From Terriglobales bacterium (GTDB lineage Bacteria > Acidobacteriota > Terriglobia > Terriglobales > Acidobacteriaceae), in the NCBI GenBank assembly GCA_025934735.1, contig JAICWP010000006.1:62001-126000 (forward strand): a stretch of 64,000 bases of DNA. The letters run 5' to 3'. Positions 18,684-46,091 of the stretch are shown in pieces. The stretch's first letter is position 1; the number at the start of each line of letters is the position of its first letter. A model generated the notes under the pieces. That model was given only the letters and a program-made list of their open reading frames with translations. It was not told where the DNA came from and did not search any database. The translations under genes and the position numbers were made by a program.

Positions 18684-19634
18684 AACCCTGTAACAAAACC
18701 GTTGCTGCAACCTAGCTGAAAGTTGGAAAATCCACTTATTCGAGGGGGAGAGTTTTCATGCCTGCCACACTTCTTTCTCCTGCCCTATGGGATTTGATTG
18801 AACCACTTCTCCCAGCCTCGCCGCCCAAGCCTCAAGGTGGCAGACCCCGTATATCAAACCGTGCTTGCCTCACGGGCATCTTGTTCGTCCTCCAAAGCGG
18901 GATCCCGTGGCGGATGCTGCCGCAGGAAATGGGCTGTGGCTCCGGCATGACATGTTGGCGGTGCTTGCGGGATTGGCAGCAGATCGGAATTTGGGGCCTG
19001 ATCCACTTCGCACTCGTGAACTGGTTATCCCACTACGGCGAAATTGATTGGTCGCGGGCGGTGGTGGATAGCTGTTCCGTGCGAGCGGTTTTTGGGGGCC
19101 CACAGACCGGTCCCAATCCAACGGACAGAGCCAAACCTGGTAGCAAGCGTCACCTGATCTGCGATGGACAGGGCGTGCCACTCGTACTCCATTTGACGGC
19201 GGCTAACCGGAACGATTCGCAGGAAGCTCTACCGCTGGTCGATGCGCTTCCGCCATTGCAGGGCGAAAGAGGACGGCCGCGGCGCCGCCCAGACTGTCTC
19301 TGGGGCGATCGAGGATACGATGCCGAGGCGATCCGGCAAGGTCTACGCACTCGACGCATCTCGCCTTTGTTAGCGAAGCGTAACACGAAGCATGGCAGTG
19401 GGTTGGGTCGCTTGCGTTGGGTGGTCGAGCGGACCTTTGCATGGCTTAACCAGTTTCGCCGTCTACGCATCAGATATGAGAAGCGGGCAGACATGCACGA
19501 GTCATTCCTGAGCCTTGGCTGTGCAATGATTTGCTGGCGCTTCTTAGCTGCCAGAACCGCTGGGCATGTGACGACTGGGGCAGGAGAGCAAATGAAGAAA
19601 CTCCGATTCGAGTCGGAACAGTACGTGAATCTCA
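18684..19634 (+). mobile_element. IS5-family-like insertion sequence, right end not recognisable
   Basis: The element consists of a left end (cctgtaacaaaacc at 18687-18700, after TTA), a short leader and one transposase gene. The expected inverse right end (ggttttgttacagg) is absent before the stop of the receptor gene at 19635. The right boundary is therefore only bracketed: after the last conserved transposase motif (about 19550) and before 19635. Probably an old, one-ended, immobile copy. Confidence 0.65.
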
Positions 19635-19645
19635 TTAGAAGATGA
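18758..19645 (+). CDS. IS5-family DDE transposase
   Basis: A 295-residue single-frame transposase of the IS5 superfamily (DUF4096/DDE). The N-terminal DNA-binding part includes [21 protein letters not shown] and [13 protein letters not shown]. The catalytic triad appears as [15 protein letters not shown] and [21 protein letters not shown]. After the usual terminal motif ([11 protein letters not shown]) the frame continues about 33 residues and overlaps the last codons of the convergent receptor gene by 11 bases. I infer that the natural stop was lost, so the tail is not transposase. The catalytic region itself is intact. Confidence 0.88.
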
Positions 19646-31579: not shown

Positions 31580-31632
31580 ACATAAAAAGCAGGGGCAGCC
31601 CGAAGGCTGCCCCCCTAAAATCCATTTTTTTG
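31580..31632. terminator. Bidirectional hairpin terminator
   Basis: A 9-base-pair stem, ggggcagcc (31592-31600) and ggctgcccc (31605-31613), has a CGAA loop. It is flanked by A-rich and T-rich tracts on both sides (cataaaaagc; ccatttttttgg). It lies just after the stop of the minus-strand gene at 31644 and can end transcription from either strand. Confidence 0.8.
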
Positions 31633-31643
31633 GGGTTGACGGA

Positions 31644-32021
31644 TCAGTGCATCTCGCCCATGGATGCCGATTTTCCCTTTTCGGGCAGCGGGTTCACCTT
31701 ATCCACATGCATGCTGCCCTTGTCCGCATCCACAGTTCCGTGGACGGCGACGCGATGGCCGATCATCTCTTTCACGGCGTCTTCGTTGTCCACTGTGTAA
31801 ACCTTTTTGTTGTGTTCGTTAACGAACACCGCGTGTTCCCCAGCGGCGAGACACTTCTTCCCGCACGCCTCATGTCCGGGAGCAGCGCCCTTCACGCCGC
31901 ACTTCGAATCACTGATCCAGCCCTTCTCCCATTTGGCTTTGGTAGCTGACTTGGCTGAGGCCAAGCCTGCAATCGCCAGAACCATAGATGCAGCACAACA
32001 AATCGTTATTAGTCTCTTCAT
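31644..32021 (-). CDS. Small exported protein, OB-fold-like
   Basis: A 125-residue exported protein. A signal peptide (MKRLITICCAASMVLAIAGLASA) is followed by GWISDSKCGVKGA, then HEACGKKCLAAGEHAVFV and IGHRVAVHGTVDADKGSMHVDKV. The conserved Cys residues and the VxGxVD strand pattern suggest an OB-like fold, a common acidobacterial secreted type. Same strand as the secreted kinase-like gene upstream (66-base gap) and followed by a strong terminator, so it may end that transcript. Function unknown. Confidence 0.75.
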   Translation of the reverse strand: MKRLITICCAASMVLAIAGLASAKSATKAKWEKGWISDSKCGVKGAAPGHEACGKKCLAAGEHAVFVNEHNKKVYTVDNEDAVKEMIGHRVAVHGTVDADKGSMHVDKVNPLPEKGKSASMGEMH

Positions 32022-32087: not shown

Positions 32088-32918
32088 CTAATAAAGCACC
32101 TGATCTTCACCTTGTTTCGCGATCAACTGCTCAAAGTGCTGCACCATCTTATCGCGGCGGGCCATCACGGCATCCACCTCTGCCTTGCTCAGAAAGCCTT
32201 TGGTTTGCGCCATCAGTTGAGCGCGGTCCAGCGCCTTTAGCTTAGCCAGCAGTTGCCGGTCGCAACGGACCAGATCAGTGGGCCGCTGCAAGGTCTTAAT
32301 GGTGCGGAACGCTCGCGTAAAGTCTACCCGATAGATCTTCCAGTCCTCACCGATCAGCACATTCGTGAGATTAGCGTCAGTGTCGTAAACCAGCTGGTCG
32401 AACACTCGCACCCGGTACATCTGCTTGTTCCAGGCATCCTGGTCGGGCACCTCAATTTTCTTCTTGAGCCGTTGTTCCTCATCCATCTTTACCGGCAGCC
32501 ACCAGCTCAGCGAACCAGATCGTCCTGACCATTTCCGCGGCACGTACACGGGCAGCATATCGTCAACTCCCAGCAGTTCGGCCACTGCGTAGGCGGCGAT
32601 ATTGTATTTGTAGGAATCGGTAAAATTCATTTCCATGCGGCCGCTGGCGAATTCTTCCAGGCCCTTATGCTCATCGACTGACTGGAAGGACGCATCGTGA
32701 GTGAGGTTCCCGTCGCTCAGCGTCAGCCGGAGGGGATGTGTAATTCCGGTCGACGAATCTCGGCTTTTGATCACCTTTGCGGTAAGCAGGAAGTTCTTTA
32801 CCTGCTCCTTGGTCAGATGGGAATCCGCGGCCTGATCCGCCGCGACACAATAGAGCGAGGAAAGTCCTAGCACCAAGGCTACGACCAGGGCTGGGCAACG
32901 GGTACCTGTGATACGCAT
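32088..32918 (-). CDS. Exported atypical kinase-like protein (PI3/4K or FAM20-like fold)
   Basis: A 276-residue exported protein. The ATG at 32918 follows GAGGAG by seven bases and starts a signal peptide (ALVVALVLGLSSLYCVA). The body has the layout of atypical kinases. An N-lobe THPLRLTLSDGNLTHDASFQ is followed by YNIAAYAVAELLGVDDMLPVYVPRKW. A catalytic-loop-like DTDANLTNVLI (D181, N186) and a metal-binding-like YRVDFTRAFR (D199) come next. This matches the D-x4-N plus hydrophobic-D-F order of PI3/4-kinase and FAM20 families. The usual H/R of that loop is absent, so activity is uncertain. Location would be periplasmic. Confidence 0.65.
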   Translation of the reverse strand: MRITGTRCPALVVALVLGLSSLYCVAADQAADSHLTKEQVKNFLLTAKVIKSRDSSTGITHPLRLTLSDGNLTHDASFQSVDEHKGLEEFASGRMEMNFTDSYKYNIAAYAVAELLGVDDMLPVYVPRKWSGRSGSLSWWLPVKMDEEQRLKKKIEVPDQDAWNKQMYRVRVFDQLVYDTDANLTNVLIGEDWKIYRVDFTRAFRTIKTLQRPTDLVRCDRQLLAKLKALDRAQLMAQTKGFLSKAEVDAVMARRDKMVQHFEQLIAKQGEDQVLY

Positions 32919-33071
32919 AAAGACACTCCTCTGGCTTCCCGCCATCGGGATCCAAGGTACCTGGTTCCTGGGACCTGCAAGCGCCGCCGGATGAGCGCTA
33001 CCGGGGCGCCTGCTGCCAATTATCGCAGCCGTGCGAAGTTGCCGCCGGCTGCTGGCGGCTGCACAAACAGC

Positions 33072-33434
33072 TCACCTGGGTAAACGTAAATCAATTCGTT
33101 CTGCGTGCAACATGCCTTTCTTGTCAACGTTGCCTTCCACGATGACGAAGGCTCCGTCTTTAAACTCGTCTTGAGTGGCATCCTTCCCGCCCTTGGTCCA
33201 CTGGGTGCTGGGATCGAACATGACCATGCGCTCGAAGTTGTCCTTGGGCGAGCGCCCGCCGCGAATGCTCATGGTTGATTTGTCGGTACTGATCCGGACT
33301 ATGTGGCCCTGCCATTGAGTCTTGTGGACGGTTTTTTCTTTAGCCGCCTTCTGTGGAGCGGCAACTGCTGCCTGCGAGGCGCAGACTGCCAGCGCCAGCG
33401 TTAAGGTCAGGAAAATCCCCCAGGGTTTAATCAT
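33072..33434 (-). CDS. Small exported protein, DUF5666/OB-fold-like
   Basis: A 120-residue exported protein with a signal peptide (MIKPWGIFLTLTLALAVCASQA). The mature part, TQWQGHIVRISTDKSTMSIRGG, then VMFDPSTQWTKGG, GAFVIVEGNVDKKGMLHAERIDLR, is the strand pattern of small OB-like secreted domains (DUF5666 type). It is upstream of the kinase-like gene on the same strand with a gap of about 150 bases. Function unknown. Confidence 0.72.
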   Translation of the reverse strand: MIKPWGIFLTLTLALAVCASQAAVAAPQKAAKEKTVHKTQWQGHIVRISTDKSTMSIRGGRSPKDNFERMVMFDPSTQWTKGGKDATQDEFKDGAFVIVEGNVDKKGMLHAERIDLRLPR

Positions 33435-33530: not shown

Positions 33531-36299
33531 TCACGCTTTGGCGGACCGCGATTCCGGCCCCAACCGCAACTTGGCTGCCCGCGCGGTCTCCCGCAGCAGG
33601 GCATCAGGGTGGTCCAGGCATTGGTTCAGTTGCTCCTCCAGGGACCTTATACCTAGAGTCCCAATAGCGTAGGCGCCGCATGACCGCAGCCAGGAGTCCT
33701 CACTGGTCATGAGCACCATAATCGCCTGCTCGGGCCTGTCCATGGCTATCCGTATCAGACGGTCGGCTCGGCTGGCGCGCTCAGCCACTGTTACACGCCC
33801 ATCCAGAAGGGGCACAAGGAGCTCGCGCAACTGCGCCTTCAAAACGTTATCGAGAAACTCCAGCGCATTGTCATGAACCGATGCGCTCTTGGATTGCAGA
33901 CCCAGATACGCGCTGTGGGCGTCCACGTGCGGGTACAGCAAGCCCAGCAGGCGGAAGATGCGCTCCAACTCCTGGTTCATGGACTCGCGCAAGGCCTCTG
34001 ACAAATGGCGGTCCTCACCGGAGCCCAGCATGTGGAGGACCTGGTAGGACCGGTAATGGCCAAGAATCTCGGCTAACAGCACGGTTTCCAGCAACTGGAT
34101 GTCGCGGTCAATCTCCGGATGCTGCCGATGCAGTTTGTTGAGAGCGCTGATCACGTGGAACCGTAGTTGGGTATCGCTCTGCAGCAGGTTTTCCATGAGG
34201 ACCCGGGCGGCAGCCGTGCTCCCCATTTTGACCAGCACCCCGGGGATGGCGCGCCGCACTCCCACGGGGACCGACGTGTCGGAAAGCTCATCCCCCAGCG
34301 CCCCGACGATGACATCGCCAAACTTGGCTAATGCCTCCTGCGCGTCGGCGCTTAAGGACGCATCGGTAAGACGGTCCAGCAAATCGGGAAGGACGCGGCG
34401 CTTGCGTAAGGTGCCGGCGGAGCGAATGGCTTCACGAACCACCTCCGTGTCCTGGTCGGCAAGCAGGGTTGCAAGCAAGGGATCGAAAGAGTCCGGCAGG
34501 ATAGCCAGAAGCCGGGCCGCTTCCAGGCGGGTAAGCCGGTTTTCCTCGCCGGCCTCGTTCACCATGGCTTCGAGCAGGTGGCGGGCAGCAGGCAAATTCT
34601 GCGCCTCGCCCGGCCGTGCCAGGTAAGCCACCATGGCAGAACGGACCGAGTAATCGGCAAAATCGCCCACCTCCTGGATGCGGGTCAGCGGGTCAACCAT
34701 GGTGTGACGGCTGAGGAAAAGCAAAGCTTCAGTGCGCACGCTCAAATCGGGATCGCGCACTAACTGCTCCACTTCCGGCAGGATCGCCTTGTCGGCGGAA
34801 GACGATAAAATGGCCAGCGCCTTTTGCCGCACCTCGGCGGCGGGATGCTGAAGCAAGCTGCGGATTACAGGATGCACCGCCCGATGTCGTTCCGCCTCAA
34901 ACACGCCGAGGGCATAGAGAATGTCGCCCGGGTTAGATGCGGTGAGGCTGGCGGCTAACACGTCGGAAGTTTCGCGGTCCAGTACCGGAGTAGAGAGCTG
35001 CTCCAGTTCCAGTCGGTGGCGGCTGACGCTGTCCTTCAGGCTGAGCACGTACTCCCTGCGTGCGCCGAAAACCGCCACCAGCCAGCACGTGATCCATCCC
35101 AGAACCACCCAGCTTAACGTCACCGCTGAAAGATGCAGCCAGGTGGCAAACACCAGCACCGTCAGGCCGGCAAGGGTGTCGCCGGCGCGCCAAATCACCG
35201 TGTCAATGAACCACTTCACCTGAATTTTCAAACGCGAGGGAAGCGGCAGATAAAGCAATTCAGCGGTTGATTTGTCCACGGAATAGCGCAGAACCTGGTC
35301 TGTGCCCTTAAGCGCGACCACCGCCGCCAGAGTGCCCACCGCGAGCAGCCCGATGGAACCAGCCATCACCGCCAGGGGCAACACAAATAGCGCCTTCCCT
35401 ATGCCGAAGCGGCGCAAAAGGCGACTGGTCAGGAGCAACTGAAAAGCCAGCGATGCCACTCCGGCGTAAAGATTGAATTCCCCGAAGAACACCGCCAGGG
35501 CATCTTTGTGCACCAGCACTTGCTGGGCGATGGCTCGGAACTGCCACATGGTGAGGTTGGTCACCAGGTTGGAGAGACAGATGACACCGGCAATGGCCCG
35601 CAGGTAGGGCGAAGCGAACACCAGCCGCAGGCTTTCCCCTAAGCTTCCCGGCCCCGCCTGAGCGGCATGTGCCGCCTCCTCCTGGTCTCCGCCCAGGCGC
35701 ACCACGCCGCTGCGCCAGATAAGCACAATCAGCACAGCGCAGAGCAACAGGAAGAACGCCATGCCAGCCAGCAGGCTTTCCGTACCGAACACCTTGGCGA
35801 TGGTGCGGGAAAAAAAGCCGGCGAAAATCCAGCCCGAAATAGCTCCTCCGCCGATTAGCCCAAAAACTCGCTTGGCCTCCCGGGTGGTCAGTACGTAATT
35901 GGCCAGCGTCCATACTTGTGCCGGGGCCAGTACTCCAAAGGTCTTCACCCAAACGTAGAACACCGGATACAGCCACGCTGGGCGGTAGGTGTAGGAGAGG
36001 ACCCAGAACAGCGCGCAGTTGCTGGCGAAGAACAGCATGCTGGTCACCAGCAACTTCACCACCGACAGCTTGCGTCCGAAACGGACGTAGGCGCCGATTA
36101 CCAGCGCCACCACAAAAGCGCTGCAGATATCCGCATAGGCCAGTTCGCGGGCATTGAAGTGCGCCAGGAACAGCGCGTCGCCCGCTACTTTGCCGACCAC
36201 GTAGCTGGTAATGATGAGGAAGAGGCAGGAGCACAGCAGGGCTCCGCGCCCCAGATCGCCGGGGCGAAGATTCAAACCTCGTTCTACCCACCGCACCAT
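33531..36299 (-). CDS. NTT-like (MFS) membrane protein fused to HEAT repeats
   Basis: A 922-residue inner-membrane protein. About residues 15-420 form 10-12 transmembrane helices resembling the nucleotide-transporter (NTT, ATP/ADP translocase-like) branch of the MFS, for example SYVVGKVAGDALFLAHF, FGVLAPAQVWTLANYVLT and KGTDQVLRYSVDKSTAELLYLP. The C-terminal half (about 440-915) is a long HEAT-repeat solenoid (HPAAEVRQKALAIL, DPDLSVRTEALLFL, DQDTEVVREAIRSAG). Such NTT-HEAT fusions occur in free-living bacteria, where nucleotide exchange is unproven. The HEAT part is probably cytoplasmic. Single gene between a small exported protein and a phosphatase. Confidence 0.85.
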   Translation of the reverse strand: MVRWVERGLNLRPGDLGRGALLCSCLFLIITSYVVGKVAGDALFLAHFNARELAYADICSAFVVALVIGAYVRFGRKLSVVKLLVTSMLFFASNCALFWVLSYTYRPAWLYPVFYVWVKTFGVLAPAQVWTLANYVLTTREAKRVFGLIGGGAISGWIFAGFFSRTIAKVFGTESLLAGMAFFLLLCAVLIVLIWRSGVVRLGGDQEEAAHAAQAGPGSLGESLRLVFASPYLRAIAGVICLSNLVTNLTMWQFRAIAQQVLVHKDALAVFFGEFNLYAGVASLAFQLLLTSRLLRRFGIGKALFVLPLAVMAGSIGLLAVGTLAAVVALKGTDQVLRYSVDKSTAELLYLPLPSRLKIQVKWFIDTVIWRAGDTLAGLTVLVFATWLHLSAVTLSWVVLGWITCWLVAVFGARREYVLSLKDSVSRHRLELEQLSTPVLDRETSDVLAASLTASNPGDILYALGVFEAERHRAVHPVIRSLLQHPAAEVRQKALAILSSSADKAILPEVEQLVRDPDLSVRTEALLFLSRHTMVDPLTRIQEVGDFADYSVRSAMVAYLARPGEAQNLPAARHLLEAMVNEAGEENRLTRLEAARLLAILPDSFDPLLATLLADQDTEVVREAIRSAGTLRKRRVLPDLLDRLTDASLSADAQEALAKFGDVIVGALGDELSDTSVPVGVRRAIPGVLVKMGSTAAARVLMENLLQSDTQLRFHVISALNKLHRQHPEIDRDIQLLETVLLAEILGHYRSYQVLHMLGSGEDRHLSEALRESMNQELERIFRLLGLLYPHVDAHSAYLGLQSKSASVHDNALEFLDNVLKAQLRELLVPLLDGRVTVAERASRADRLIRIAMDRPEQAIMVLMTSEDSWLRSCGAYAIGTLGIRSLEEQLNQCLDHPDALLRETARAAKLRLGPESRSAKA

Positions 36300-36366: not shown

Positions 36367-37617
36367 CTATCGTTTAGCCTGGACCGGCAGCGCGTCTGCA
36401 TGGTCCATGTACTCGGCCGTGAAGTTCACCCCATCGCGAATTCGCAAGGCCGACGCCCGGCCCTGGGGATAGTAGCTGGAAAGCATTCCCGTATCGATGA
36501 GAAAAAGCTTGCCGCCCAAGCGGCTGCGAATGCGGCCATCCCGCTGGGGAGTGTGCCCCACCACAATGCCCGTCGCCCCATATGCCGCCAGAATCGCGGG
36601 AAGATTGGCAGCCACTTGCTCGTCGCTCCACTCGTCGTACCCGCGAAACCACAGCGGGCCATTGGAAGCAACGCTCAGCCACCGTCCGTAGTCCAAGAAC
36701 TCCTTCATCAGCTCCCGTTGCGTATGCTCGGGAAGCGATTCCTGCTCATTCCGGCTGGGATGGCGCAATTTGGGAGCATTTTCCCGTGCGCTCACCTCGG
36801 CCTGCACCACCGCCGTGATTTCCTGCAGCGTGAAAAAGGGCAGAATCAGTTGCTGGGCTGCCAGGAACTCCTTCGCCTTATCAAAGCCGCTGAGCTCCTC
36901 CTGAACGCGGCTGTTGATGCTTTGCACGCTCATGGAAGCCAGGCTGGGATCAATCCCTCCGTGCACAAACACCACGTGCTCCAGTTCCGCCACCGCTGGC
37001 CGTTCCCGCAGCCACTTGCCATATTTGCCTTCCGGACCGAATGCGTCGCGCTGCTCGATGAACCCCGCGGGATGCCGGGCCGCCCACTCCGCTTCACTGG
37101 TTTCGGGAAACGCCTGCGGCATGCTTGCCAGCAGTGCCTCATGATGCTTGCGCCAGTCGACATACTCCCGGTACGCCGAATGCTGGAGCTTCTCCGAATT
37201 CTTGCCGGCATAACTGGCGTAGTTCTCCGCCGTTACGTAGCGGAGGTCGCCCATGATGTTCATTACCTCATGGTTGCCGAGAAGCACCACGACCCTCCCG
37301 CCCTTCTTTGGCGCCTCCTTCTGCAGCGACATCAGCAGGTCCATGGCTTCGCGAGGTTTGGGGCCGCGATCGAGCACATCGCCGGTTTGAACCAGAGTTG
37401 TGCTGCCGCCCGTCCAATGGTGCTCCGCGTCAATAAGACCGGCATGTTGCAGCAGCGCAGCCAGAGCGTCGAAATCGCCGTGTATGTCCGCCACCGCCGT
37501 GATGGATGAGGGGGGACCGGCGGCCCTCGCCGGAGGCCCCAGAACCAGGCCGGCAAGAAAGACAAGGAGTAATGACGTTGCAGGGCGGAAGCTCAAATGT
37601 CGTCGCAGGCGCGCCAT
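36367..37617 (-). CDS. Exported PPP-family (Shewanella-like) metallophosphatase
   Basis: A 416-residue exported calcineurin-like phosphatase. The ATG at 37617 follows AAGGA; an upstream start would put charged residues before the signal segment (LLLVFLAGLVLGPPARA). The metal-site series is complete: VADIHGDFD (44-50), GDVLDRGPKPREA, LLGNHEVMNIMGD, FVHGGIDPS and VVGHTPQRDG. This is the order of the Shewanella-like PPP group, which often acts outside the cytoplasm on phospho-residues. With a secreted kinase-like protein 3.4 kb away, a periplasmic phosphorylation pair is possible but not shown. Confidence 0.85.
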   Translation of the reverse strand: MARLRRHLSFRPATSLLLVFLAGLVLGPPARAAGPPSSITAVADIHGDFDALAALLQHAGLIDAEHHWTGGSTTLVQTGDVLDRGPKPREAMDLLMSLQKEAPKKGGRVVVLLGNHEVMNIMGDLRYVTAENYASYAGKNSEKLQHSAYREYVDWRKHHEALLASMPQAFPETSEAEWAARHPAGFIEQRDAFGPEGKYGKWLRERPAVAELEHVVFVHGGIDPSLASMSVQSINSRVQEELSGFDKAKEFLAAQQLILPFFTLQEITAVVQAEVSARENAPKLRHPSRNEQESLPEHTQRELMKEFLDYGRWLSVASNGPLWFRGYDEWSDEQVAANLPAILAAYGATGIVVGHTPQRDGRIRSRLGGKLFLIDTGMLSSYYPQGRASALRIRDGVNFTAEYMDHADALPVQAKR

Positions 37618-37826
37618 GGTTGGGTTCCTTTTGGGCCCGGAAGGCACAAGGCGTGCTTACACCCCGTACACGCCCCGCGTGGTGCGAATCTTAGGGCCCG
37701 GTACTCCACAAGTCAATGCGCTGTATCTGGCCTCAGGAAGCGAGGGCCTGCCCGAGGCCTGGAAATCCTTCTTTGTCCATCCTGCATCTCACCTCCTCAA
37801 ATCACCTTTTTCATTGGGAGTCGAGA

Positions 37827-44819: not shown

Positions 44820-45959
44820 CTAGCGCTTGGAGTCGCCCACTGCACGCGGCGGCAGCGGGTCCATGGCCGATGCCATCGGGGGCGCCCCCAGCGACTCCTG
44901 CGCCTGATAGCCGGAGACAATGCGAGCGTGCGAGATGGCCAGTGACGCCGCCGACATGGTGTGGGGATTCCGCTCCACCGCTCCGTAACGGAAGCCGGTG
45001 GCGATCACCGTGATCTTGAGCTGTTCCTTCATGCTCTCATCCTGCACCGCGCCGAAGATGATGTTAGCGTCATCGTCGGCCGCGCCCTGGATGATCTGGC
45101 AGGCTTCGTTCACTTCCCGCAGGGCCAGCGAACTGGAGCCCGTAATGTTGATCAGCAGCCCGCGTGCTCCGAAGATGCCGCCGTTGTCCAGCAGCGGCGA
45201 GGAAATGGCGCGCTTGGCTGCTTCCGCCGCCCGCCGCTCGCCCGAGGCCACCGCCGTGCCCATCACCGCATAGCCCATGCCTTCCATGGTGGTGCGCACG
45301 TCGGCAAAATCGCGGTTGATAATGCCGGGCACCTGGATGATGTCGGAAATGCCCTGCACCGCCTGGCGCAGCACGTCGTCGGCAACCTTGAAAGACTCGA
45401 AGAAGCCCGCGCCCGTGGCCACGCTCAGCAGCTTTTCATTGGGAATAACGATGACCGTCCCCACCGACTGCATAAGCTCGGCGATTCCCTGCTCCGCCTG
45501 CGCCATGCGCCGCTTGCCTTCGAAGCCGAAGGGCTTGGTGACCACCGCCACCGTGAGCGCGCCCAGTTCGTTGGCCAGCGAGGCCACAATGGGCGCCGCG
45601 CCCGTGCCGGTGCCGCCACCCAGTCCGGCGGTGACGAATACCATGTCCGCGCCCTCGAGCGCGTCTATCAGCTTGTCGGTGTCTTCCAGGGCGGCGCGGC
45701 GGCCCACTTCAGGGTTGGCGCCCGCTCCCAGCCCGTTGCTCAGCTTGCTGCCGATCTGAATTTTCAGGGGCGCCCGAGAGAGCCGCAGCGACTGCAGGTC
45801 GGTGTTGGCCACCAGGAACTCCACGCCTTCCAGGCGCGCCTCGATCATGCGGTTGACGGCGTTCACGCCGCCGCCGCCTACGCCTACCACCTTAATTTTT
45901 GCCGGCGGTTGTGGTCCGTTGTCCAAACCCACCCGAAGTTCCATCACTTTGTCGCTCAT
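44820..45959 (-). CDS. ftsZ: Tubulin-like cell-division GTPase FtsZ, without usual C-terminal peptide
   Basis: A 379-residue FtsZ. The nucleotide-binding motif [15 protein letters not shown] (GGGTGTG 114-120), the [16 protein letters not shown] start and the T7 loop NRDFAD (215-220) are intact, so GTP binding and hydrolysis should work. After the core the tail is short and ends [16 protein letters not shown]. The conserved DIPAFLRR-like peptide that binds FtsA or ZipA is absent, and no frameshifted copy was found downstream. No ftsA, ftsQ or mur genes surround it; it lies between a sugar dehydrogenase and a TonB receptor. It may be a second FtsZ paralogue. Confidence 0.9.
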
Positions 45960-46091
45960 AACACCTCTCGCGCGCAAAAGTCAGCGTTTCCTAACTGCAG
46001 CGTAAGTGGTGCAGTGCCCTGGAACAATAAGGTGATATGCGTAGAAGCCGGCCTGCTTTTGTGGAAAAGCGGTACACAATTCGTTTGCCCA

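Follow-up and report, generated by a model that had tools for sequence, protein, structure and literature searches.

The prevailing view is that bacteria have no ATP outside their cytoplasm, and their extracytoplasmic kinases have therefore hardly been studied. CotH spore-coat kinases are bacterial kinase-fold proteins whose targets, the coat proteins, lie outside the cytoplasm proper. Here we ask whether a gene of a Terriglobales bacterium (Acidobacteriota), whose genome measures 4.94 Mb, encodes an exported kinase, and what its neighbours would contribute to such an activity. The gene lies in a stretch of 64,000 nucleotides of contig JAICWP010000006.1 (hereafter the window), for which a first-pass annotation, made from the sequence alone, had proposed a signal-peptide protein with a PI3/4-kinase or FAM20-like fold. 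By computation we show that the family of this protein combines predicted export signals and a predicted FAM20-like fold with conserved aspartates, linkage and fusion to an exported phosphatase, and linkage to a transporter. We lean towards a reading in which the exported FAM20-like kinase-fold protein belongs to an extracytoplasmic module together with the phosphatase and an NTT-HEAT protein.

The kinase-fold gene and its family

The longest open reading frame (ORF) of the gene, taken from its first ATG, occupies 32088..32945 (-), and 32918 is an internal in-frame ATG from which a protein of 276 amino acids is read (32088..32918, (-)). We annotate this product as an exported FAM20/PI4K-like kinase-fold protein, based on the ORF, on the match of the family profile to the PDB and on the fold matches described below. 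The motifs DTDANLTN, which contains D181 and N186, and VDF were found in this frame at the positions previously given for them. The protein has a basic start followed by a hydrophobic stretch and A-x-A-like sites, which fits the signal peptide claimed earlier, and we predict a Sec signal peptide over residues ~1-27 (32838..32918, (-)). A simple signal-peptide rule, applied across the family, was positive in 47 of 52 unfused kinase-family ORFs, against 50 of 500 control ORFs.

Profile searches found a match to the family in 80 of 396 genomes drawn across the Acidobacteriota, frequently in multiple copies per genome; a first search, of 100 related genomes, had given matches in 10, the window's own among them. 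The named relatives of the window protein come from Acidobacteria MAGs and are 52 to 72% identical to it. No relatives were found on viral contigs or on plasmids, and thus no link to mobile elements was found.

Similarity to FAM20 and other kinase folds

Taken alone, the window protein had no match in a Pfam search, nothing useful in a single-sequence search of the PDB and weak matches only in NCBIfam. We therefore rely here on a profile built from 69 family members (alignment A3), which ranked FAM20A first in the PDB (5.7e-10), followed by FAM20C (5.5e-6), FAM20B (1.5e-5), the Fam20 protein H03A11.1 (4kqa, 6.1e-4) and PI4K-II (0.0042), the best E-value outside FAM20 and PI4K-II being 0.38. 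The alignment to FAM20A comprises two collinear stretches, one in the N-lobe (A-x-F-K ... E-I-A-A-F) and one in the C-lobe, which extends to the final helices. When the 69 members were scanned one by one against Pfam, matches were obtained to PI3_PI4_kinase (38), HipA_2 (32), Fam20C (22), ABC1 (18) and IPK (8), with a best E-value of 1e-5, and we take all five to be kinase-fold families. CotH was considered as a separate identity and set aside; the 25 Pfam families (of 36) that are listed for the 69 members do not include it. Searching 24 genomes with the Fam20C model (PF06702) gave eight sub-threshold matches in five genomes, six of the eight at listed kinase places, and none in the named control genomes; within these 24 genomes the gathering cut-off was passed by no member.

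AF2 models were built from five sequences each and both were poor, with a pLDDT of 47.9 for the window protein and of 52.7 for L018, a relative which is 54% identical to it. For the window model, FAM20 entries occupied ranks 1-9 by VIA (Z 6.0 to 4.6) and ranks 1-24 by Foldseek (E from 0.022). Since these matches are non-significant when taken alone, the weight rests on the L018 model, for which all 23 Foldseek rows under 1e-3 were FAM20 (best 3.2e-5) and VIA ranks 1-9 were again all FAM20 (Z 9.6 to 8.5), followed by PI4KII (8.0), CtkA (7.2), MavQ (5.5) and HipA (5.3). Two aligners thus placed FAM20 ahead of everything else, where the first-pass annotation had named a match to a non-kinase fold as grounds for abandoning its proposal. 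Sequence profile and predicted fold agree on a FAM20-like fold, which we regard as close to certain.

Active site residues and the Gln-Asn clade

The candidate catalytic residues are well conserved. Asp181 (codon 32376..32378, (-)), the candidate catalytic Asp, is present in 65 of 69 members; Asn186 (32361..32363, (-)), a candidate metal-binding residue at D+5, is present in 64 of 69; and Asp199 (32322..32324, (-)), the DFG-type Asp, which falls on FAM20C Asp478, is found in all 69. As D181 and D199 are conserved, the second ground on which the proposal was to be given up, that the two Asp residues might vary among homologues, fails to refute it. The Asn at position 186, where FAM20 has Glu, is a PI4K/HipA-like feature. 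A fourth residue, Asp101 (32616..32618, (-)), aligns with FAM20C Glu306 and FAM20A Gln258, and is Asp in 61 of 69 and Glu in 6 of 69 members of A3. According to the literature, Glu306 of FAM20C is essential for catalysis, its equivalent is Gln258 in FAM20A, and FAM20A is a pseudokinase with ATP bound in an inverted manner.

The Lys-Glu pair shows a different pattern. The beta3 Lys position of FAM20 (A-x-F-K) is Gln79 in the window protein (32682..32684, (-)), and across 70 sequences this position is Gln in 38, Lys in 22, Arg in 9 and His in one. The alphaC Glu position, which is Glu in members with the Lys-Glu pair, is Asn106 in the window protein (32601..32603, (-)). Positions 79 and 106 change together, since 36 of the 69 members have Gln-Asn, 19 Lys-Glu, 9 Arg-Glu and five other pairs. 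In the tree, all members with Gln at position 79, including that of the window, group together in a clade of 38 rows (support 100/98), to which the outgroup members retain Lys-Glu. Because the Gln members are confined to a single clade, the swap from Lys-Glu to Gln-Asn most simply occurred once and was then kept, and it represents a natural experiment on the nucleotide site of a kinase.

Given that the Lys-Glu pair is replaced by Gln79 and Asn106, the window protein may be non-catalytic, and its place in this clade points either to an enzyme whose nucleotide site has been rewired or to a partner that is a pseudokinase. As a pseudokinase, members of the clade would bind nucleotide or another ligand and regulate the phosphatase or another kinase, without transferring phosphate. 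The frequency of the Gln-Asn pair (36 of 69) in a well-supported clade of 38 rows (100/98) is consistent with such a role, as is the precedent of FAM20A, an ATP-binding pseudokinase, and fusion to a phosphatase would suit a regulatory domain. Nevertheless, the whole Gln-Asn clade retains D101, D181, N186 and D199, among the rows listed and in the A3 counts, which would be needless in a dead fold, and the position of D101 is occupied by Gln in the inactive FAM20A; we consider the pseudokinase explanation unlikely. The earlier designation as a kinase therefore stands for the fold and for candidacy; as to activity, the Lys-Glu pair is lost in the window's clade and, judging from the sequence, we see the chances that the window's own Gln-Asn copy is active as evenly balanced.

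In four loci (L095, L096, L097 and L098), the D-x4-N motif has been lost from some of the kinase copies that are fused or arranged in tandem (for example, YDDCRNEKD), and judging by these motifs active and dead kinase copies may be paired there.

Neighbouring genes

The kinase-fold gene is part of a run on one strand which comprises, in order of transcription, the phosphatase, the NTT transporter, a DUF5666-like gene, the kinase-fold gene, a DUF5818-like gene and a hairpin, with intergenic gaps of less than 130 bp between the coding stretches. The first gene (36367..37647, (-)) encodes an exported Shewanella-like (PPP-type) metallophosphatase of 426 amino acids, identified by PF00149, its PDB match and its active-site motifs. 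Its best PDB matches were 1v73/2z72, a cold-active protein tyrosine phosphatase (5.6e-28), with Ap4A hydrolase far weaker (0.011). The metal-site motifs of PPP enzymes, which we take to be GDxHG, GDxxDRG, GNHE, HGG and GHT, are present as ADIHG (with the first Gly changed to Ala), GDVLDRG, GNHE, HGG and GHT, and in an alignment of 22 rows of the family H9, G42-D43, E80, H182 and H318 are invariant. Export signals were found in 22 of 23 phosphatase ORFs.

The nature of this phosphatase bears on the possible substrate of the kinase-fold protein. A kinase acting outside the cytoplasm on a small molecule, glycan or lipid, in the manner of FAM20B or PI4K, and not on proteins, would agree with the presence of FAM20B, a glycosaminoglycan xylosylkinase (1.5e-5), and PI4K-II (0.004) among the PDB matches and with the rank of PI4KII directly behind FAM20 by fold. 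However, the linked or fused phosphatase is nearest to a protein tyrosine phosphatase (5.6e-28, as compared with 0.011 for Ap4A hydrolase), and we judge this substrate class to be distinctly unlikely.

The second gene (33531..36299, (-)) encodes a transporter of 922 amino acids which belongs to the TLC/NTT ATP/ADP-carrier family and carries C-terminal HEAT repeats, with scores of 74.1 bits to PF03219 (cut-off 21) and 62.7 bits to HEAT_2. PF03219 was matched at 1e-3 by 25 of 26 members of the NTT family, and the family profile found the solved structures of NTT1 with E-values of 1.5e-39 and 3.7e-38. The gene lies 586 bp upstream of the kinase ORF, on the same strand; the first-pass annotation had called for an extracytoplasmic source of nucleotide if the kinase is active. 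In two papers (PMC10654386, PMC4256464), four charged residues of the plant homologue AtAATP1 are described as needed for ATP/ADP exchange and widely kept, and one paper reports that K527 matters for nucleoside triphosphates and not for diphosphates. Mapped through the spacing of residues when the NTT profile is aligned with NTT1, AtAATP1 K155, E245, E385 and K527 correspond to D57, K119, M251 and D374 of the window NTT, and among 26 family members the K527 column holds Asp in 20, Lys in four, Arg in one and Thr in one. As the four residues are changed, ATP transport by the window NTT is doubtful, and from its sequence the protein may move another substrate or work differently. We accordingly suggest a supply of nucleotide by the NTT protein only tentatively, as something that could be the case and that we would not expect.

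The same neighbours could be accounted for by nucleotide salvage, in which the phosphatase would hydrolyse external nucleotides, the NTT protein would act as an importer and the kinase-fold protein would be an accessory, with no signalling involved. The weak PDB match of the phosphatase to Ap4A hydrolase is in line with this, and characterised NTTs are nucleotide importers according to one study (PMC5381601), but a kinase would use up the salvaged nucleotide, both the FAM20-like fold and the nearest phosphatase relatives point to action on macromolecules, and the AATP1 transport residues are not kept. Salvage is thus, in our view, very improbable.

Two small exported proteins are encoded on either side of the kinase-fold gene. 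The DUF5666-like protein (33072..33434, (-); sub-threshold PF18914) lies between transporter and kinase, and a relative of it was found near the kinase in nine loci. In the window its gene has the orientation of the operon, but in the relatives L050 (9337-9855) and L052 (4213-4623) it lies at the same place on the opposite strand, which suggests a local inversion. The DUF5818-like protein (31644..32021, (-); sub-threshold PF19135) lies downstream of the kinase, and no counterpart of it was seen near the kinase in the neighbour table of the other fetched loci. A terminator-like hairpin matching the consensus, with a 10 bp stem and a T-tract (31591..31614, (-)), is a possible end of the transcription unit as read from its sequence; 11 such hairpins were found in the region, against 8.6 expected.

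Elsewhere in the window, a transposase-like ORF (18758-19645 (+)), which by eye we take to be IS5-like, adjoins a TonB-type beta-barrel gene, and an FtsZ-like protein of 385 amino acids (44820-45977 (-)) was recognised by eye from its motifs. In L096, L097 and L098, short NTTs without the long HEAT part adjoin phosphatase-kinase fusions and tandem kinase copies.

Linkage, fusion and co-occurrence

Phosphatase and kinase are fused, with the phosphatase N-terminal and the kinase C-terminal, in 12 single ORFs from 12 genomes, a count which, like those of fetched loci and of clusters, gives no unbiased rate, as our third batch of regions favoured long ORFs. Because the choice of regions was biased in this way, proximity counts over the listed rows are the fairer measure. 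At the 150 kinase places listed (72 genomes), an NTT gene lay within 10 kb at 43 (30 genomes), a phosphatase gene at 55 (36 genomes) and both partners at 35, with a chance expectation of ~1.2 for the NTT and ~0.8 for the phosphatase when a 4-Mb genome and even spread are assumed. The input consisted of 150 listed kinase rows, 150 listed NTT rows and 75 phosphatase rows, these last with matches of ~1e-40 or better and C-terminal second pieces dropped. With the places that had seeded the profiles removed, NTT was still nearby at 26 or more of the 150 places (at least 26, in 15 genomes) and the phosphatase at at least 35 of 150 (19 genomes), both being lower bounds, as the recount used 49 NTT rows and 53 phosphatase rows from outside the seeds. 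Among the matches listed, neither partner was within 10 kb at 87 of the 150 kinase places, which argues against a tight unit, as do the genomes with an NTT and no kinase counted below.

The kinase recurs next to these two genes across the fetched loci. Clustering of neighbouring ORFs there, in which L017/L057 and L049/L087, two pairs of duplicates, each contributed a single count, as they did for the fusions, gave NTT as the commonest real family (26 loci), then the unfused phosphatase (15 loci), and next DUF5666 and a protein-kinase family (nine loci each); the largest cluster (49 loci) we interpret as antisense shadows cast by the kinase-fold ORF.

At the level of whole genomes, 79 of 80 kinase genomes have an NTT and 63 of 80 a phosphatase, the kinase is missing from only five of the 68 genomes with a phosphatase, and 79 genomes have an NTT without a kinase. 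By genus, NTT was found in 51 of 52 kinase genera and in 45 of 159 others. The comparisons by genome and by genus ignore kinship, so that Fisher p-values are overstated by related genomes, and both are favoured towards co-occurrence by the seeding of the NTT and phosphatase profiles (A4 and A5) from places near kinases. Taken together, we consider it highly probable that the kinase is functionally linked to the phosphatase and the transporter, and the context of linkage and fusion suggests that phosphorylation may take place outside the cytoplasm in bacteria.

In 16 stretches from genomes with strong NTT or phosphatase matches, in which the kinase match was absent or nearly so, no intact kinase was found. 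A 236-aa ORF of genome G355 (L110:10902-11609, G355:C3), of which only the end matches the kinase C terminus, sits just upstream of a window-type NTT transporter and is likely a decayed copy or remnant of the kinase.

Discussion

Our favoured reading is that of an extracytoplasmic module. In it, proteins or glycans outside the cytoplasm would receive phosphate, or some other group derived from a nucleotide, from the kinase-fold protein, the exported phosphatase would take off the group so added, and the NTT protein might carry nucleotide across the inner membrane, so as to supply or recover it, for instance by moving nucleotide out and product in. Of these steps, active phosphotransfer outside the cytoplasm by the family as a whole seems to us probable. 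The module in its complete form, an extracytoplasmic phospho-signalling or decoration system with kinase, phosphatase and nucleotide export by the NTT-HEAT protein in return for spent product, and with a Gln-Asn clade that is still active, is doubtful. If it were true, the NTT-HEAT proteins of free-living bacteria would gain a function and periplasmic kinases a source of ATP. One gene cluster thus makes two questions testable, that of extracytoplasmic kinases and that of the role of the NTT family in free-living bacteria, which PMC5381601 reports as unknown.

In one study, the FAM20 cluster is described as specific to eukaryotes or to Metazoa within that paper's own set (PMC9758233). A literature search, which had most subscription papers outside its range, found no report of a FAM20-like protein of Acidobacteria, nothing relevant, among the entries listed, on extracellular bacterial kinases and none on a link between NTT-HEAT proteins and a kinase.

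How, then, does this locus compare with known systems? The phosphatase resembles the Shewanella-like protein phosphatases (1v73/2z72) in its PDB match of 5.6e-28, its metal-site motifs and its export, but those of the Acidobacteriota are fused to a kinase-fold domain or lie beside one. The transporter shares with other NTT-HEAT proteins the combination of PF03219 with HEAT repeats, and the likeness to NTT1 (1.5e-39); NTT-HEAT fusions are, according to Major et al. (PMC5381601), widespread, of single origin and of function reported as unknown. In contrast to these, the window NTT is linked to an exported kinase and a phosphatase, and has the four AATP1 residues changed.

Among kinases, the SCO1664 family (TIGR03843) shows weak homology to 65 of the 69 members (best 3.2e-18), but has a different gene context, and this identity was dropped, as the score of the window protein is 23.4 bits and the curated cut-off 172.4. 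PI4-kinase II, HipA and CtkA share with the window family the fold, the D-x4-N and D-F/H motifs and the per-member Pfam matches, whereas the window family is exported and their fold scores are below those of FAM20. The closest likeness by profile and by fold is to FAM20A, FAM20B and FAM20C of the animal secretory pathway, which also have an export signal, an acidic residue at the Glu306 position (here D101), the DFG-type Asp (D199) and similar C-terminal helices. Unlike FAM20, the window's clade has neither Lys in beta3 nor Glu in alphaC (Q79 and N106), and its family carries at D+5 an Asn in place of the Glu seen in the FAM20 alignment. Furthermore, FAM20 proteins carry a disulfide pattern, according to the literature, whereas the mature window protein has a single Cys (C219) and therefore no such pattern, and it stays below the Pfam Fam20C cut-off. 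We read the protein as working in the manner of a FAM20-type secretory kinase, but, given the differences in the Lys/Glu pair, the disulfides and the Pfam cut-off, we class it as a FAM20-like relative from bacteria and not as a member of FAM20.
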